From the NCBI RefSeq assembly GCF_016772475.1, contig NZ_CP068595.1, forward strand, positions 7,130,001 to 7,194,000: a stretch of 64,000 nucleotides of DNA. The letters run 5' to 3'. Every line of letters starts with the position of its first letter. Position 1 is the stretch's first letter. Below, one piece after another: positions 50,361 through 56,969 of this stretch. The DNA comes from Paenibacillus sonchi. Lineage in GTDB: Bacteria > Bacillota > Bacilli > Paenibacillales > Paenibacillaceae. The position numbers were made by a program, and so were the translations under genes. The notes beneath the pieces were generated by a model. That model made no database searches. It was not told where the DNA came from and saw only the letters and a list, made by a program, of their open reading frames with translations.

Positions 50361-51027
50361 CGGCATCCAACAAGGATTCATTCTTAAACACAATTGCCTC
50401 CAAGCTGGGGCGGGAGCGTATCTACGACGTTCAGCGGCCGGACTTGCAGGCCATGGCTCCGGACAGCTACGGCAGTTTAACAGCCGGTGAGCTGATAGAG
50501 ATTCTGAAGGAGCAGTGCTTTTTCATTCACACGCAGGTGATTGAATCAAACGCGGAAATCTTGCAGAAAACATTGGATGATCTGATCGCTGCGAATGGCG
50601 GAGGCAGTGTAATCACTTCCGGAGATGCCCGGTTTGCCGAATATGGGCTGGAATTCGCAAATGCTTCCGTCTGGGAGGAAGCGGCAGGAAGGGAGCAGAA
50701 TATTCTGCGCTCCGCAGCGGCCAATACGGCGATTGTCTTTGCCGACTATGCGCTGGCCGAGTCGGGTACGATTGTTGTCGAGAGCCGCCCGGATCAAGGG
50801 CGCGCCCTGCATTTTCTGCCTGCCCATTATATTGCGGTGATTGAAAAAAGCGGCTCATGCTCCGCTCGACCCAGGCTGCAGCAGATCTGAACCGGCGGAT
50901 TCAGGCGGGGGAGCCGCTGGGTTCCTCGATCAATTTCATTTCCGGGCCTTCGAATTCGGCCGATATTGAAATGCAGCTCGTTGTCGGGGTGCATGGTCCG
51001 CTGCGGGCGGCCTATGTGCTTATCTAG
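50357..51027 (+). pseudogene. lutC: L-lactate utilisation protein LutC, frameshifted
   Basis: The ATG at 50357 overlaps the lutB stop. The LUD-domain sequence ([35 protein letters not shown]) runs to about 50850, where one missing base, probably a C in AGCCGGCTC, breaks the frame. The next frame continues as [16 protein letters not shown], then [20 protein letters not shown] and [14 protein letters not shown] to the stop at 51025-51027. Joined length is about 223 residues, normal for LutC. The intact operon partners make a sequencing error more likely than loss of function. Confidence 0.9.
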
Positions 51028-51043
51028 CGATTCATTTAGCAGA

Positions 51044-51799
51044 TCACTCCTTTTTAGCGATAATCATAAACCGGTTCACATTCTCATAACCATATTTCAG
51101 GTAATTAAGCGGCAGCTTGCGGGCAGGAATGAAATTCCGGCGGGTATCGAATATGCGGAACCCTGCGTGCAATAGAGCCTGTTCATCTGCTTCAGGCCGG
51201 AGTACATTTACAAACGGCAGTTCACTGAGCAGGCTTTTTTCCCTGCTGCTGCGCTGCCGGATTCTTTTTTCCGTAATCAGAATCAGCATCCAGGATAAAG
51301 CGTACCAGAGCCTGCGGAATAATGACTTGTTCTCCTTATACATATAGTTGCCGTCAAAAACAATCAGAGTCCCGCCCGGCTTCAGAATGCGGTGCCACTC
51401 CGCATAGGCCTTCTGCGGATCGGGCAGCGTCCACACCATATCACGGCAGACGACTGCGTCGAAGCTGTTATCCGGCTCGGCAGTTAAATCCGCTGCATCG
51501 CCCACATATGCCTGGACTTTGCATCCATAGCGGTCAAAGTTTCGCGAAGCCCGTTCAATCATTCCCCGTGAAGCATCCACTGCTGTTGCCTGATGCCCCA
51601 TCTGTGACAAGAGGATAGAGAAAAATCCCGGACCTGTTCCTACATCAAGTACTTTTTGCCGGGATTTGAGGCCCATTCCCTGAATAAGCAGCTGCTTCCA
51701 CAGTCTGACGGTTTTCCTGCTGCGGAATTGAGTCTGGATCACCTTGTCATAACCAACCGAGCTGGAGGTCCAATATTTAGAGATTTCTTTTAGCATCAT
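51044..51799 (-). CDS. Class I SAM-dependent methyltransferase, last gene of the Zur-box ABC operon
   Basis: 251 residues. The SAM motif I is VLDVGTGPGFFSILL, motif II region ATAVDASRGMIERA, then DSFDAVV-type motif (NSFDAVVCRDMVWTLPDP) and ILKPGGTLIVFDGNY. Its ATG overlaps the stop of the binding-protein gene by four bases, so it is translationally coupled to the importer. A methyltransferase in this place suggests that it modifies the imported ligand or metal complex, or a precursor of a metallophore. Substrate unknown. Confidence 0.92.
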   Translation of the reverse strand: MMLKEISKYWTSSSVGYDKVIQTQFRSRKTVRLWKQLLIQGMGLKSRQKVLDVGTGPGFFSILLSQMGHQATAVDASRGMIERASRNFDRYGCKVQAYVGDAADLTAEPDNSFDAVVCRDMVWTLPDPQKAYAEWHRILKPGGTLIVFDGNYMYKENKSLFRRLWYALSWMLILITEKRIRQRSSREKSLLSELPFVNVLRPEADEQALLHAGFRIFDTRRNFIPARKLPLNYLKYGYENVNRFMIIAKKE

Positions 51800-53475
51800 T
51801 CTTCACCTATGTCCAGCTGATTCCAGAAAACCGGTGTGAAGGTGGTGTACCCGGGCTTGAAACCCTTCACCCGCTTGTTCACCGCCATGACCTCTTCCGG
51901 AAAGTATAGGGCTCCAAACATGGCTTCCCCATACAGCCTGCCAAAGATCGAGTCATAAGCCTTTTGCCTCACCAGCAGATCCGTACTTCCTACCGCTGTA
52001 TCAATGAATGATTCCAATTCAGCGTCCGACCAAGCAACAGCCGGTGCCTCCGCAGTCCTATGGAACAGGGACAGGAGAAAGGCATGCGGATTATAAGCAT
52101 CGTCGTAGGTACGGTACATAATAAGGTCGTATGCCTTGGTGGTCCATAATGCATCATAATACGCGTTAGGCTCAAGGATCTGAAGATTCACGGCAATACC
52201 TATCGCCTTCAGCTCGGACTGGACCAGCTCACTGACGGATTTCCATTCCGGAAACTCGGCTTGCTGCAGTACAAAACTAAACTCCAGCGCCGCGCCGTCC
52301 TTTTCAACGATTCCATCCCCATTAGAATCGCTATAACCGGCTTCTGCAAGAAGCTGTTTTGCTTCATCCGGGTCGAAGCCATACCAGGTATTATTCTGAT
52401 CTGTCACATAGGGTACGGTTAAGGGGAATAGACCTTTGGCTTCGCTGCCGATACCATCCAGCAGATCATCGATAATGCTTTTTTTGTTGATGGCTAAATT
52501 AATGGCTTTGCGCACGTTCAGGTCCTGCAGAGCCGGAGTGTTGTAATTAAAAATCAGGAAATGCGAATTTGTTCCTGGTGCTTTTTGCAGACTCAAACTG
52601 GAGTCGCCTTCGATAACCGGTACGCTTTCTACCGGAAGCTTGCCGGGCTGGCCTCCTGCAATATCTACAGCCCCGCTTTGCAGCGCCAGCACTCTGGATT
52701 GCGGATCAGGAATAACCTTGAGAATAATCTTGGACAGCTTGGGGGCCTCTCCCCAGTAATAAGGATTTCTGACGAGCACTGCCTCCTGATCCGTCTTATA
52801 GCTCTCCGCCATCCATGCCCCGGTGCCGACCGCTTTGACAAATTTCCCGGTAACCTCTCCGGCAGGTTCTACGGCAGAAGGGCTAATGATTCGAACCGGT
52901 CTTGCAAAAGACAACTCCGTAAGGAACGGATAATAGGTTTTGTTGAAGGTCATGGTGAGGGTATGGTCGTCTACAACATCCATAGACTGCAACGCTGCAG
53001 CTACATTCAACGAATTAGCCGGATCGTTCATCCAGCGTTCAAAAGAGAATTTAACCGCGGCGGCATTAAAATCAGTGCCATCCGAGAACTTCACCCCATG
53101 GCGAAGATGAAAAGTATACACTTTTCCGTCTTCGGATATGTCCCAGGACTCTGCCAATGCCGGCAGAATGCTGCCTTTTTCCCCATACTCCACTAATCCG
53201 TCATAGATCATCGCATGTACACTCATCGCACCTTTATAGGCACCGGCATCGAGCTGATCTATACCAGGGTCTGCCGATATGGCTACAGTGACCGCTTTCT
53301 CCCGCCCTTCGGAGGGTTGGCCTGTTGCATCGCTGTTATTGCTGTTGCTGCTGCACCCCGCAATCATTATGAATGCAGCCAGTATGATCATTATCAAAGA
53401 TTGGGTTAAGCCTCTGATTCGCTTTGAATTTCTTGCCATCTCTAATGTAACTCTCCTTCTTCTAATTTCGGTCAT
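51796..53475 (-). CDS. Nickel/peptide-class (family 5) binding lipoprotein of the Zur-box importer
   Basis: Up to 559 residues. A start at 53475 overlaps nikE by 14 bases; the internal ATG at 53439 gives a better lipoprotein signal (MARNSKRIRGLTQS, then lipobox IAGC). The mature part is a family-5 binding protein of the NikA/OppA/CntA type: GLVEYGEKGSILPALAESWD, LRHGVKFSDGTDFNAAAVKF and NVRKAINLAINKKSI. With the Zur box ahead of the operon, the cargo is more likely zinc or a zinc-metallophore complex than nickel or peptide. Confidence 0.88.
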   Translation of the reverse strand: MTEIRRRRVTLEMARNSKRIRGLTQSLIMIILAAFIMIAGCSSNSNNSDATGQPSEGREKAVTVAISADPGIDQLDAGAYKGAMSVHAMIYDGLVEYGEKGSILPALAESWDISEDGKVYTFHLRHGVKFSDGTDFNAAAVKFSFERWMNDPANSLNVAAALQSMDVVDDHTLTMTFNKTYYPFLTELSFARPVRIISPSAVEPAGEVTGKFVKAVGTGAWMAESYKTDQEAVLVRNPYYWGEAPKLSKIILKVIPDPQSRVLALQSGAVDIAGGQPGKLPVESVPVIEGDSSLSLQKAPGTNSHFLIFNYNTPALQDLNVRKAINLAINKKSIIDDLLDGIGSEAKGLFPLTVPYVTDQNNTWYGFDPDEAKQLLAEAGYSDSNGDGIVEKDGAALEFSFVLQQAEFPEWKSVSELVQSELKAIGIAVNLQILEPNAYYDALWTTKAYDLIMYRTYDDAYNPHAFLLSLFHRTAEAPAVAWSDAELESFIDTAVGSTDLLVRQKAYDSIFGRLYGEAMFGALYFPEEVMAVNKRVKGFKPGYTTFTPVFWNQLDIGEE

Positions 53476-54276
53476 CTGACCTTCTTAGCCGGGGGTCCTG
53501 TACAGGCACCGAAGCTATAAGTTTTTGGGTATACGGATGGACCGCCTGCTTCATCAGTCCGCCGCCCGATTGCTCCTCCACAATCTGCCCCTGATGCATT
53601 ACAGCTGCCCTGTCACAGAAACGGCTGACGACTGACAGATCATGTGTAATAAAAATATAAGCCAGCCCCAGCTGAGCCTTCAGCTCCTGCAACAAATTCA
53701 TCATTTGCCTCCGCAGGCTGGCATCGAGACTGGAGAACGGCTCATCACAGATAATCAGCTCCGGGCGAAGCGCAATCGCTCTGGCAATGCCGATTCTTTG
53801 CTGCTGGCCCCCGCTGAGTTCATGCGGATAACGGTACATGTACCGCCCTTCGAGACCCACCAGCTCCAGCGTTTCTGCAATCCGGTCCCTGCGTGCCCCT
53901 GCATTTCCCATCCCGTAATTCCTTAACGGCTCGCCGATGATTTGCTCCACTGTAAACAGCGGGTTGAACGAAGCGAGGCTGTTCTGAAATACGACCTGCA
54001 GCTTGCCCCGAATTCTCCGCATTTTGCTTAAGCTCCAATCTGTGAAATCTGTACCCTGGTAGAGAACCCTTCCGGAGGACGGCCGTTCCAATCCAAGCAA
54101 TAAACGGGCCAGCGTGCTTTTACCACTGCCGCTTCCCCCACAAGTCCCAGATTTTCATGCGGCTTCAGCCGGAGCGACAGATGATTTACAGCCGCTACCT
54201 TTTGGATATCCGGCGTGAACCACCTCCCTTCCCGGCCATACACTTTACTCAGTTCTACAGCTTCGAGCAGATACAT
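53462..54276 (-). pseudogene. NikE/OppF-type ABC ATPase, frameshifted in Walker A
   Basis: The start ATG at 54276 (MYLLEAVELSKVYGREG) has AGGAGGGG five bases upstream. The frame breaks in the Walker A loop, where a run of five G (complement of 54135-54139) needs a sixth to give NLGLVGGSGSGKSTLARLLL. Downstream the protein is normal: signature ELSGGQQQRIGIARAIA, Walker B LIICDEPFSSLD and the switch His in FITHDLSVV. About 271 residues when joined. It is one of the two ATPases of the importer. Confidence 0.9.
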
Positions 54277-54313
54277 GTCTCCCCTCCTGAACAGATATAT
54301 ACTATTATGGTTG

Positions 54314-55099
54314 TTATCTGCTGCCAAGAAGCTGTCTTGTATAGGGATGCACCGGATTGGCAAAGAGGGTGTACACATTTCCGGCCTCCACAATCTTTCC
54401 TGACTGCATGACATACACATAATCCGCAAGCTCTGCGACAACGCCAAAATCATGTGTGATTAACAGGATGCCCATGCCCTCCGCATGTCTGATCCGATCC
54501 AGCTCCTTCAGAATCCGGGCTTGAGCCATAACATCAAGTGCTGTTGTCGGTTCATCGGCAATCAGAAGGCGCGCACCTGAGATTAGAGCGATGGCAATCA
54601 TCACCCGCTGGCACATCCCGCCGCTGATCTGAAAAGGATATTTAGTGTACAGCAGCTCAGGATCGCTTAGGCCTGCCCGGTGCATCTGCTCCAAAGCCAG
54701 AGCTTTTGCCTCTTTTCTGGATACCTTTCTATGCAGCATCACCGTCTCCCTGATCTGCTTGCCAATGGGGAGCAGCGGATGAAGTGCGTTCATGGGGTCC
54801 TGAAAGATAACGGCTATTTCTTTGCTCCGCAGCATCCTTAGCTCACGTTTTGAGTATTCGCGGAGATTATTGCCACCCAGCCAGACTTCTCCCTTCTCCA
54901 CCCTGCCCGGCGGGTCCAGCAGCCCCAGAACAGACATGGCTGTTACGCTTTTTCCACAGCCGCTTTCACCGACAAGCGCAACAATCTGCCGGGGCCTCAC
55001 TTCCATGCTCACATCATCTACAGCCGTGACTGCCTGATCCTTGGTACAGAAGCTGGTCCGCAGATGGTCGATTCTCAGCAGCGGGGTCTCAGTTAACAT
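54314..55099 (-). CDS. NikD/OppD-type ABC ATPase
   Basis: 261 residues: Walker [17 protein letters not shown], signature [16 protein letters not shown] (a variant of LSGGQ), Walker [13 protein letters not shown] and switch His LITHDFGVV. Starts three bases after the stop of the second permease. Confidence 0.95.
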
Positions 55100-55102
55100 G
55101 TT

Positions 55103-55930
55103 CTACAATTCCTCCTTCTGCCCCGGTTTGCGCAGCCCCTCTCCCAGCAGATTGAAGCCCAGGACCGAAAGCATAATGGCCAGTCCCGGATATAACAGCA
55201 GCCGGGGCTCCGTTTGGATGTAGGGGCGGCTATCGTTCAGCATGACTCCCCACTCCGGTGTCGGAGGCTGAGCACCCAGGCCCAGAAAAGACAGACCGGC
55301 GATCGAGAGCATCAGTGTACCGATTTCGATGGAAGCCAGCACCAGGATGGGACGGGTGGCATTCAAGAGAATATGCCGCAGAATAATCTGCAGATGCGTG
55401 GAGCCTCCAGCCTTCGCTGCCATAATGTAATCACTTTCCTTTATTTGCAGGACCATACTGCGGATCACTCTTGCATAGCCCGCCCACCACACTGCTGCAA
55501 AAGAGATAAGCAGGTTTTTCATGCTGGGGCCAAGCACCGCTGTAACGGCCAGAGAGAGAATGAGACTGGGAAAAGCCAGCAGGATGTCAATCACCCGCAT
55601 GATCAAATGATCGATTATTCCCCCAACATAGCCAGCGAGCAGGCCAACCGGAATACTAATAGAAAAAACCGCCGCCAGTACCATCAGTGAATAATATAGT
55701 GAAGTCCGCGTCCCGTAGATCAGACGGGATAAAACGCAGCGCCCCAAATGGTCCGTACCCAGAGGATACTCCCATGACGGCATACTTAGCTTGTGTTCCA
55801 TATGAATCTGAAGCGGATCGGATGGAGCAAGCCAAGGGGCAAATATTCCAATACATACGAACAGAAGCACAATCATCCCGCCGGCTTTGGCCCCGTTACT
55901 CTTGAACATATGAAGGCGGTTCAAAACCAA
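55103..55930 (-). CDS. NikC/OppC-type ABC permease
   Basis: 275 residues, with the OppC N-terminal segment (a single membrane helix), then five membrane segments. The PLGTDHLGRCVLSRLIYGTR block and the EAA-like YIMAAKAGGSTHLQIILRHI loop are typical of dipeptide/nickel permeases. It lies 18 bases after the first permease. Confidence 0.95.
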   Translation of the reverse strand: MVLNRLHMFKSNGAKAGGMIVLLFVCIGIFAPWLAPSDPLQIHMEHKLSMPSWEYPLGTDHLGRCVLSRLIYGTRTSLYYSLMVLAAVFSISIPVGLLAGYVGGIIDHLIMRVIDILLAFPSLILSLAVTAVLGPSMKNLLISFAAVWWAGYARVIRSMVLQIKESDYIMAAKAGGSTHLQIILRHILLNATRPILVLASIEIGTLMLSIAGLSFLGLGAQPPTPEWGVMLNDSRPYIQTEPRLLLYPGLAIMLSVLGFNLLGEGLRKPGQKEEL

Positions 55931-55948
55931 CGCCCCCTTTCTGCCGTT

Positions 55949-56893
55949 TCACCGCATCCTGATTCGCGGGTTCAGCAGCAGATGGAGCAAGTCCACCGCA
56001 ACGTTAATCAGGACAACGACAACAGCCATTATTAATACATAGCCTTGAATGACCGTGTAGTCTTTGGCAAAAATAGCTTCCACTGCATATTTGCCGATAC
56101 CGGGCCAGGAAAAGATGCTCTCCACAATCACCGAACCGCCCAGCAGCCCCCCTATGTGAATCCCCAGCAAGGTGAGGCTGGGAAGAAGTGCATTGCGAAG
56201 CGCATGTCCGCTTATCACCTTCCATTCCTGCAGCCCCTTAGCCCTCGCCGCCTTGATATAGAGCTTGCCGAGAACTTCCAGCAGACTGGAACGGATCAGA
56301 CGGATATAGATTCCCGCCATGCCAAAGCCGAGAGTACATGCAGGCAGAATCACACTCGGCCATCCCTCCATGCCCATCACAGGGAACCACTTCAGCTTCA
56401 CCGCACCATAATAAATCAGCAGCAGGCCAAGCCAGTAACCCGGCACGGAAACACTGAACAGCGCACAGACTCTTCCCAGACGATCCAGCAGGCTTCCCGG
56501 ATAAAGGGCAGAGCCGATGCCAAGCGGCAAGGCAATCAGAATTGCCGTCAACAAGGAGCAGCCGCTAAGCAGCGCTGTAGCCGGGAAACGGGTCATAAGT
56601 TCTTCCCGCACCGGCAAGCCGCTGCTGTAGGATATTCCCAAATCCAGATGAAACACGCGGTACAGCCAGTGCACAAATTGCATATGTATCGGCCCATCCA
56701 GGCCAAGAGCATGTCTGGTGGCCTGGATGGCCTCCAGTGTAGGCTTGATGCCGTCTGCACGCAGCATAATCTCAGCCGGATCTCCCGGCGTTATTTGCAT
56801 CAGTGCAAAGGTTATTATGGAGATGCCAAACAGCACGGGAATGATCTGCAGCAGCCGCTGCACCAGATACCGTAAAATGATGTTCAACCCCAA
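55949..56893 (-). CDS. NikB/OppB-type ABC permease, first gene of the Zur-box operon
   Basis: 314 residues from TTG 56893 (or TTG 56887). It has the family hallmark ITPGDPAEIMLRADG, six membrane segments, and the EAA-type loop YIKAARAKGLQEWKVISGHA. There is no Shine-Dalgarno site; the putative -10 at 56915-56920 would leave a leader of only about 15-20 bases. Order of the operon is permease, permease, ATPase, ATPase, binding protein, methyltransferase. Confidence 0.93.
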   Translation of the reverse strand: MGLNIILRYLVQRLLQIIPVLFGISIITFALMQITPGDPAEIMLRADGIKPTLEAIQATRHALGLDGPIHMQFVHWLYRVFHLDLGISYSSGLPVREELMTRFPATALLSGCSLLTAILIALPLGIGSALYPGSLLDRLGRVCALFSVSVPGYWLGLLLIYYGAVKLKWFPVMGMEGWPSVILPACTLGFGMAGIYIRLIRSSLLEVLGKLYIKAARAKGLQEWKVISGHALRNALLPSLTLLGIHIGGLLGGSVIVESIFSWPGIGKYAVEAIFAKDYTVIQGYVLIMAVVVVLINVAVDLLHLLLNPRIRMR

Positions 56894-56900
56894 TGTTTAT

Positions 56901-56915
56901 TCGTAATAATTACGA
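56901..56915. promoter_or_regulatory. Zur box
   Basis: TCGTAATAATTACGA is a perfect 7-1-7 palindrome and matches the Bacillus Zur operator consensus TCGTAATNATTACGA at all positions. It abuts a TATAAT -10 on the minus strand (56920-56915) and lies eight bases upstream of the first permease start, a position that would block transcription when zinc is plentiful. Fur and PerR boxes differ (GATAATNATTATC and TTATAATNATTATAA). Confidence 0.9.
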
Positions 56916-56920
56916 TTATA
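56915..56920 (-). promoter_or_regulatory. -10 element of the Zur-box operon
   Basis: A consensus TATAAT on the minus strand, sharing its last base with the Zur box. No good -35 is visible at 17 bases. Confidence 0.6.
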
Positions 56921-56969
56921 ACATAAACTTTTAAAATTAATAGTCTAAATTTGACGTTCATATAAAACA

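Follow-up and report, generated by a model that had tools for sequence, protein, structure and literature searches.

What does an importer whose parts resemble those of a nickel transporter do when its operon begins at a zinc-type operator and ends in a methyltransferase gene? The question is raised by six minus-strand genes, in the order NikB-NikC-NikD-NikE-binding protein-methyltransferase, that lie in a 64,000-nucleotide stretch of the Paenibacillus sonchi genome (contig NZ_CP068595.1, positions 7,130,001 to 7,194,000), hereafter the window (Table 1). We propose that the operon encodes a Zur-controlled zinc-chelate import system in which the methyltransferase methylates the imported ligand in order to free the zinc, and we consider the chance that this whole account is right to be about even.

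A Zur-type operator and its conservation

The operator TCGTAATAATTACGA and the extended -10 element TGTTATAAT have one base in common, the first minus-strand base of the former being the last base of the latter, and TGnTATAAT occupies the equivalent place in all five of the tandem-type orthologous operons in which it was read alongside the box. No good -35 element was found upstream of the extended -10. Three exact boxes occur in the 7.78-Mb genome, against an expectation of 0.017-0.033, and the other two both fall in one zinc-gene cluster, where one precedes the gene of a ZigA-like GTPase (533.9 bits, under the cut-off of 600) that is divergent from a CobW-like gene (so called by eye), behind which lie two permease-like genes. 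The remaining exact box precedes a ZnuCBA-like operon and then a gene for ribosomal protein S14, the S14 match passing its cut-off and the ZnuA-type model staying below. The same palindrome marks the Zur regulon of Bacillus subtilis, a regulon that is not known to include an operon joining a methyltransferase to an importer.

The other three box matches within the window carry three mismatches each. When up to two mismatches are allowed, 27 genome sites are found versus 26 with a reversed-pattern control, so that near-matches occur at the level of chance; weak matches are therefore informative only where their position is conserved, and they were used in this way only. One-mismatch boxes of the P. 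sonchi genome lie near an MFS-type transporter (by eye; L041:7719) and upstream of a small protein of 133 amino acids (L042:5967). Five Fur-family proteins are encoded in the genome, and the one at C1:6948533, which scores under every Fur, PerR and Zur cut-off, is likely to be Zur, being so assigned by exclusion and by a sequence motif.

Conservation of the box was followed in a set of 100 Paenibacillus genomes, 18 of which have a match to the binding protein at 74% identity or more and a further three at 42-43%. Internal stops occur in six of these 21 match rows, five of which hold an open frame of 543-558 amino acids, the sixth being that of G087. A box with no or one mismatch stands ahead of NikB in 17 of the 18 orthologous operons; the one exception, G084, lacks the front part of the operon there. 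There is a second arrangement, in which the methyltransferase gene and a more distant Nik-like operon are transcribed away from each other, and here a box with up to two mismatches lies between the two in all six genus genomes examined (G014, G016, G104, G073, G100 and G105). A separate genome collection, which partly overlaps the genus set, gave boxes with at most two mismatches in 13 of 15 tandem-type loci of Paenibacillaceae (L074 and L082 being without one) and in 4/4 divergent loci; at L086 the gene that follows the box was called as an open reading frame (ORF) of 304 amino acids at the place of NikB.

An earlier note on this DNA had described the six-gene order, a four-base overlap of the last two genes, a perfect Zur operator at the -10 and control of the operon by Zur. 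The gene order and overlap are as described, and the operator is exact and touches the -10 in the single base mentioned above. Control by zinc-loaded Zur is supported, as far as DNA sequence can speak for it, by the exactness of the box, by its retention in orthologues and by its presence before the zinc genes of the same genome.

Table 1. Coordinates within the window of the operon, its operator and its promoter element
Feature	Position	Strand	Basis
NikB/Opp2B-type permease	55949-56893	-	NCBIfam Opp2B 418.2 bits, cut-off 350
NikC/Opp2C-type permease	55103-55930	-	NCBIfam Opp2C 317.7 bits, cut-off 300
NikD-type ATPase	54314-55099	-	TIGR02770 291.2 bits, under cut-off 318.7
NikE-type ATPase	53462 to about 54276	-	frame change in present assembly
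NikA-like substrate-binding protein, SBP_bac_5	51796-53475	-	Pfam PF00496 336.2 bits
Class I S-adenosylmethionine (SAM)-dependent methyltransferase, type 1 of importer-linked family	51044-51799	-	PF08241 87.1 bits
Zur operator, perfect 7-1-7 palindrome TCGTAATAATTACGA	56901-56915		exact match to box
Extended -10 TGTTATAAT	56915-56923	-	read from sequence

The open frame of NikB begins with TTG eight bases from the Zur box (56880-56893), which leaves hardly any space for a ribosome site; read by eye, the true start may lie a few codons further downstream, possibly at a non-standard codon. In the NikE gene the frame shifts between about 54148 and 54067, close to the ATP-binding loop; each of the first five close orthologues compared has it in one open frame. 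A lutC-like neighbour is likewise split, by a frame change at about 50845-50848 relative to G028. Since two genes no more than 3.3 kb apart are both split, the changes are likely to be indels of the assembly.

Linkage of the methyltransferase to metal importers

The start of the methyltransferase gene and the stop of the binding-protein gene share the four bases ATGA (51796-51799), an overlap that recurs in G028, G015, G031 and G001, and G026 has a short gap at this place. A methyltransferase gene lies directly downstream of the binding-protein orthologue in all 18 genus genomes that bear the operon, five of which (including P. sonchi) have type 1 only, seven types 1 and 2 in tandem and six type 2 only. 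The type thus varies, yet every operon has a methyltransferase, which is therefore tightly linked to the importer. No type 1 methyltransferase (at least 72% identity) was listed for the other 82 genomes of the genus.

The same association is seen when loci are picked by similarity to the methyltransferase alone. This selection matched 595 stretches and gave 465 relatives, the best 80 of which reduce to 77 distinct loci; these are the nearest relatives, near-duplicates from Proteus and P. tyrfis included, and they span Firmicutes, Proteobacteria, Spirochaetes and archaea. The methyltransferase was not called in three of the 77 loci and in two of 19 control loci holding other class I methyltransferases from related genomes, so that 74 and 17 could be compared. 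A Nik-type binding protein or permease is encoded within 6 kb of the methyltransferase in 61 of the 74 (five of them with FecB/FecCD as well), and six have FecB/FecCD only. Because the control loci extend about 1.5 kb per side, the fair comparison is that of the immediate neighbour, which is Nik-type in 56/74 family loci versus 0/17 controls. In a phylogenetic tree the family, with 93 rows, groups together and apart from the 17 controls, whose branches are long; the support is 93/93, under the strict star.

Operons with a methyltransferase at both ends (methyltransferase-BCDEA-methyltransferase) occur in Clostridia-type genomes and in Methanosarcina; in L090, L091 and L092 the tree assigns the two enzymes to separate regions, and in L147 it sets them close together. 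A MATE exporter, confirmed with Pfam, is co-directional with the importer or the methyltransferase in five of the 77 loci, and a sixth member of the exporter cluster (L137) was not confirmed by Pfam. Among 495 nearby ORFs that were clustered and named by eye there was no recurrent third partner and no biosynthetic family in four or more loci. The clusters that did reach four loci represent synteny within Proteus or P. tyrfis/elgii, a sugar-kinase-like protein and the MATE exporter, together with scattered ones for a LysR-like regulator (six loci) and a histidine-kinase-like or unknown protein (four loci). Judged by linkage, the methyltransferase is part of the transport system.

The regulator that governs the pair is a different one in other lineages. 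A scan for RNA families, which covered 51 of the 77 loci, showed in seven (L101, L103, L104, L107, L109, L121 and L149) that the operon with both methyltransferase and importer is preceded by a cobalamin riboswitch, all of them in Clostridia-type genomes and Spirochaetes. In L104 a distance of 792 bases, in which there is an ORF of 68 amino acids, separates the end of the riboswitch from the first gene of the importer, and the other six gaps measure 75-274 bases. The riboswitches of L100, L135 and L108 are not ahead of the methyltransferase-holding operon; in L135 (10986-13307) that operon is near a CbiM/CbiQ cobalt transporter preceded by a cobalamin riboswitch. In Orbus the operon comes after ureC-E-F-G-D and a urea transporter, which suggests that the importer there serves nickel. 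Inspection of 14 loci outside Paenibacillus revealed no other consistent DNA operator.

That the metal-linked regulator changes while the methyltransferase stays points to the ligand rather than the metal, and the enzyme probably acts on the imported ligand. The riboswitches before relatives also bring up the alternative that a cobalt, corrinoid or mixed-metal ligand is imported in Paenibacillus, with Zur serving as the switch since zinc would be the main metal on this ligand in soil. With a Zur-type box in 17/18 operons of the genus and 13/15 tandem-type Paenibacillaceae operons of the collection, we regard this as very unlikely.

Binding protein, methyltransferase and the nature of the ligand

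The binding protein, which looks by eye like a lipoprotein and gave a structure model with a pLDDT of 91.4, misses the cut-offs of the specialised models, reaching 362.2 bits with the NikA equivalog TIGR02294 (cut-off 393), 279.6 with the CntA model NF047575 (cut-off 800) and 158.7 with the DppA-like NF043070 (cut-off 1005). In the tree it is one of 28 rows that group together with support of 100/99, every one of which was sampled by way of a methyltransferase. The neighbouring group comprises E. coli NikA, three proteins from opine loci, that of G004 and gammaproteobacterial methyltransferase-linked proteins, three further opine-locus proteins form a third group, and E. coli DppA is distant, on a long branch that leaves its placement unsure. 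A comparison with known binding proteins, which the earlier note had proposed, thus sets this one outside the sampled E. coli NikA, Cnt-type and dipeptide groups, in a clade of its own beside the NikA/Cnt-type proteins.

With the NikABCDE system of E. coli the operon has in common the five-part architecture and a binding protein that has NikA and CntA among its closest solved folds and NikA proteins as its best solved-structure relatives. It is unlike that system in its Zur-type box, in the gene order BCDEA and in the added methyltransferase; the regulator of the E. coli nik operon is NikR, whose gene adjoins it. Among the pocket residues of NikA, equivalents of Arg137, Tyr22, Tyr382 and Tyr402 are retained and those of Arg97, Trp100, Trp398 and His416 are not, the loss of the last being less certain as one phmmer alignment sets a nearby histidine at this position. 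His416 is essential for nickel uptake according to the title of PDB entry 3qim.

These comparisons bear on the simplest alternative, an ordinary nickel or peptide importer to which the Zur box or the methyltransferase is incidental. All transporter parts are indeed NikABCDE-like, and the Opp2B and Opp2C models, which are named for nickel, pass their cut-offs. Such an importer would hardly be expected to keep the box in 17 and the methyltransferase in all of 18 operons, nor to have a binding protein that misses the NikA equivalog cut-off, stands outside the NikA/Cnt group and lacks four of the pocket residues (the one aligned histidine aside), and we think this explanation highly improbable, the least probable of those considered. 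The operon likely encodes a zinc-chelate importer; it is the regulation that points to zinc as the cargo.

If a chelate is imported, it must be asked who makes the chelator. The nearest known counterpart is the Cnt system (staphylopine/bacillopaline, CntKLM-CntABCDF), also an Opp-family importer of metal chelates, and boxes with at most two mismatches were found in five of eight opine-type regions (seven with CntM, all with CntL). These eight regions contain no methyltransferase of the importer-linked family, and P. sonchi, unlike Cnt-bearing genomes, yields no CntM or CntL match (PF10100, PF03059) anywhere in its genome. No opine-synthesis match was obtained in 108 tested stretches either, the zinc cluster of P. 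sonchi included. Across the genus set CntM is matched in 15 genomes, once partially; two of these (G087 and G088) are among the 18 that bear the operon and one (G100) is of the divergent type, always unlinked, and CntM is beside a methyltransferase of the family in none of the 15. An opine-type metallophore of its own, as the earlier note had envisaged, is accordingly not supported, and the ligand is probably not an opine of the cell's own. The note had also thought of a system that handles a methylated zinc chelator; this may be so, although the wider family, with its zinc-, nickel- and cobalt-linked importers, speaks more for an enzyme that acts on the ligand brought in. In G009 a second Zur-like box (L153:16136-16288) lies directly behind an opine Cnt-type operon and ahead of another Nik-type binding protein, which groups near the gammaproteobacterial methyltransferase-linked ones; no family methyltransferase was found in G009 at the cut-off used.

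A biosynthetic role of the enzyme, in which it would decorate a self-made, exported metallophore that the importer retrieves, has to be weighed here as well. Opine zincophore clusters have been treated in a paper by Morey and Kehl-Fie. Some of these clusters are reported to hold extra methyltransferases beside an Opp or FecCD importer, for which the authors hypothesise a modification of the product (PMC7438024). Those methyltransferases lie within synthesis clusters, whereas the P. sonchi operon has none. The MATE exporters of five loci would also suit an exported product. Synthesis genes would, on the other hand, be expected alongside, and the 495 neighbouring ORFs hold no recurrent ones, a count that concerns neighbours and not non-opine pathways elsewhere in the genome, for which no search was made; together with the missing CntL and CntM matches and the unlinked CntM of two operon-bearing genomes, this leaves the biosynthetic role unlikely.

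The methyltransferase itself carries the PF08241 (Methyltransf_11) domain and the glycine-rich SAM motif of class I enzymes, with Gly54, Gly56 and Gly58 in 80/80 homologues and Asp52 in 79/80. Outside this motif Trp10, Arg119, Trp123 and Trp135 are present in 80/80 and Arg201 in 79/80, a set of residues that would suit a carboxylate-bearing ligand. No cysteine is conserved, the two of the window protein being common to 8/80 and 33/80 homologues, and His69 is present in 56/80, so nothing in the protein suggests contact with a metal. Arsenite methyltransferases of the ArsM type bind the metalloid through conserved cysteines; direct metal methylation of this kind was rejected, as such cysteines are lacking and ArsM models score far under their cut-offs.

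A structure model of the enzyme (pLDDT 92.6) matches small-molecule methyltransferases of many kinds. As a hint to the substrate the fold search was unspecific, and families outside the match list may also come into question. TmtA and GtmA, which are S-methyltransferases with a protective role, are among the Foldseek matches, and the enzyme could by analogy inactivate toxic or over-tight chelators that enter through the importer, which would fit its linkage to importers for several metals. Matches so unspecific lend this little weight, and control by metal need, through a Zur box or a cobalamin riboswitch, points to nutrition and not to poison; we rate protection as decidedly unlikely, somewhat more so than biosynthesis.

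Proposed mechanism and its wider meaning

In the zinc-chelate account preferred here, zinc-loaded Zur would occupy the box over the -10 and block the operon, a block that zinc starvation would relieve. The binding protein would then catch zinc complexed with a small chelator that bears carboxylates, either an environmental (soil) ligand or a metallophore that other organisms produce, and NikBC-DE would bring the complex into the cell. The cytosolic methyltransferase, translated from the same message, would methylate the imported ligand with SAM. That the ligand is its substrate is suggested by the linkage and the conserved residues; that methylation serves metal release is speculative. Its simplest use would be to weaken the grip of the ligand on zinc, so that the metal comes off and the ligand, once spent, can leave, and where a co-directional MATE exporter is present it could remove the latter.

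Several observations weigh against this account. NikE is split in the present assembly, and the binding-protein gene of G087 lies in two ORFs. The fold of the methyltransferase is about as similar to N- as to O-, C- and S-methyltransferases. Seven of the 74 loci have no importer inside the limits used, and the link to MATE exporters is rare (5/77). The methyltransferase-importer operon of G004 has no Zur box, and several genomes of the genus (L177, L178, L179, L051 and L052) have a methyltransferase beside FecB with no box at up to two mismatches. Copies linked to FecCD or preceded by cobalamin riboswitches could serve the uptake of corrinoids instead of cobalt chelates.

Each part of the system belongs to a known kind; what appears to be new is the pairing, how widely it occurs and the change of metal-linked regulator. 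A literature search returned no report of a methyltransferase paired with an importer that lacks synthesis genes, a weak negative in view of the subscription journals, most of which it did not cover. On a broader scale, bacteria and archaea may share a module that has gone unrecognised, consisting of a chelate importer of the Nik/Opp or FecCD type, one or two cytosolic methyltransferases and sometimes a MATE exporter, in which methylation of the incoming chelator would release zinc, nickel or cobalt and only the regulator changes; this generalisation we put forward tentatively, as a doubtful yet real possibility.

To our knowledge, how a metal is released from a tight chelator after import is settled for few metallophores besides those of iron. 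A methyltransferase that is kept beside importers in more than one domain of life, while the metal-linked regulator and the type of transporter change, is a candidate for such a missing step, and as it is a single, deletable gene the step would be testable. Importers now annotated as 'nickel' or 'peptide' may, in turn, be chelate importers for other metals.

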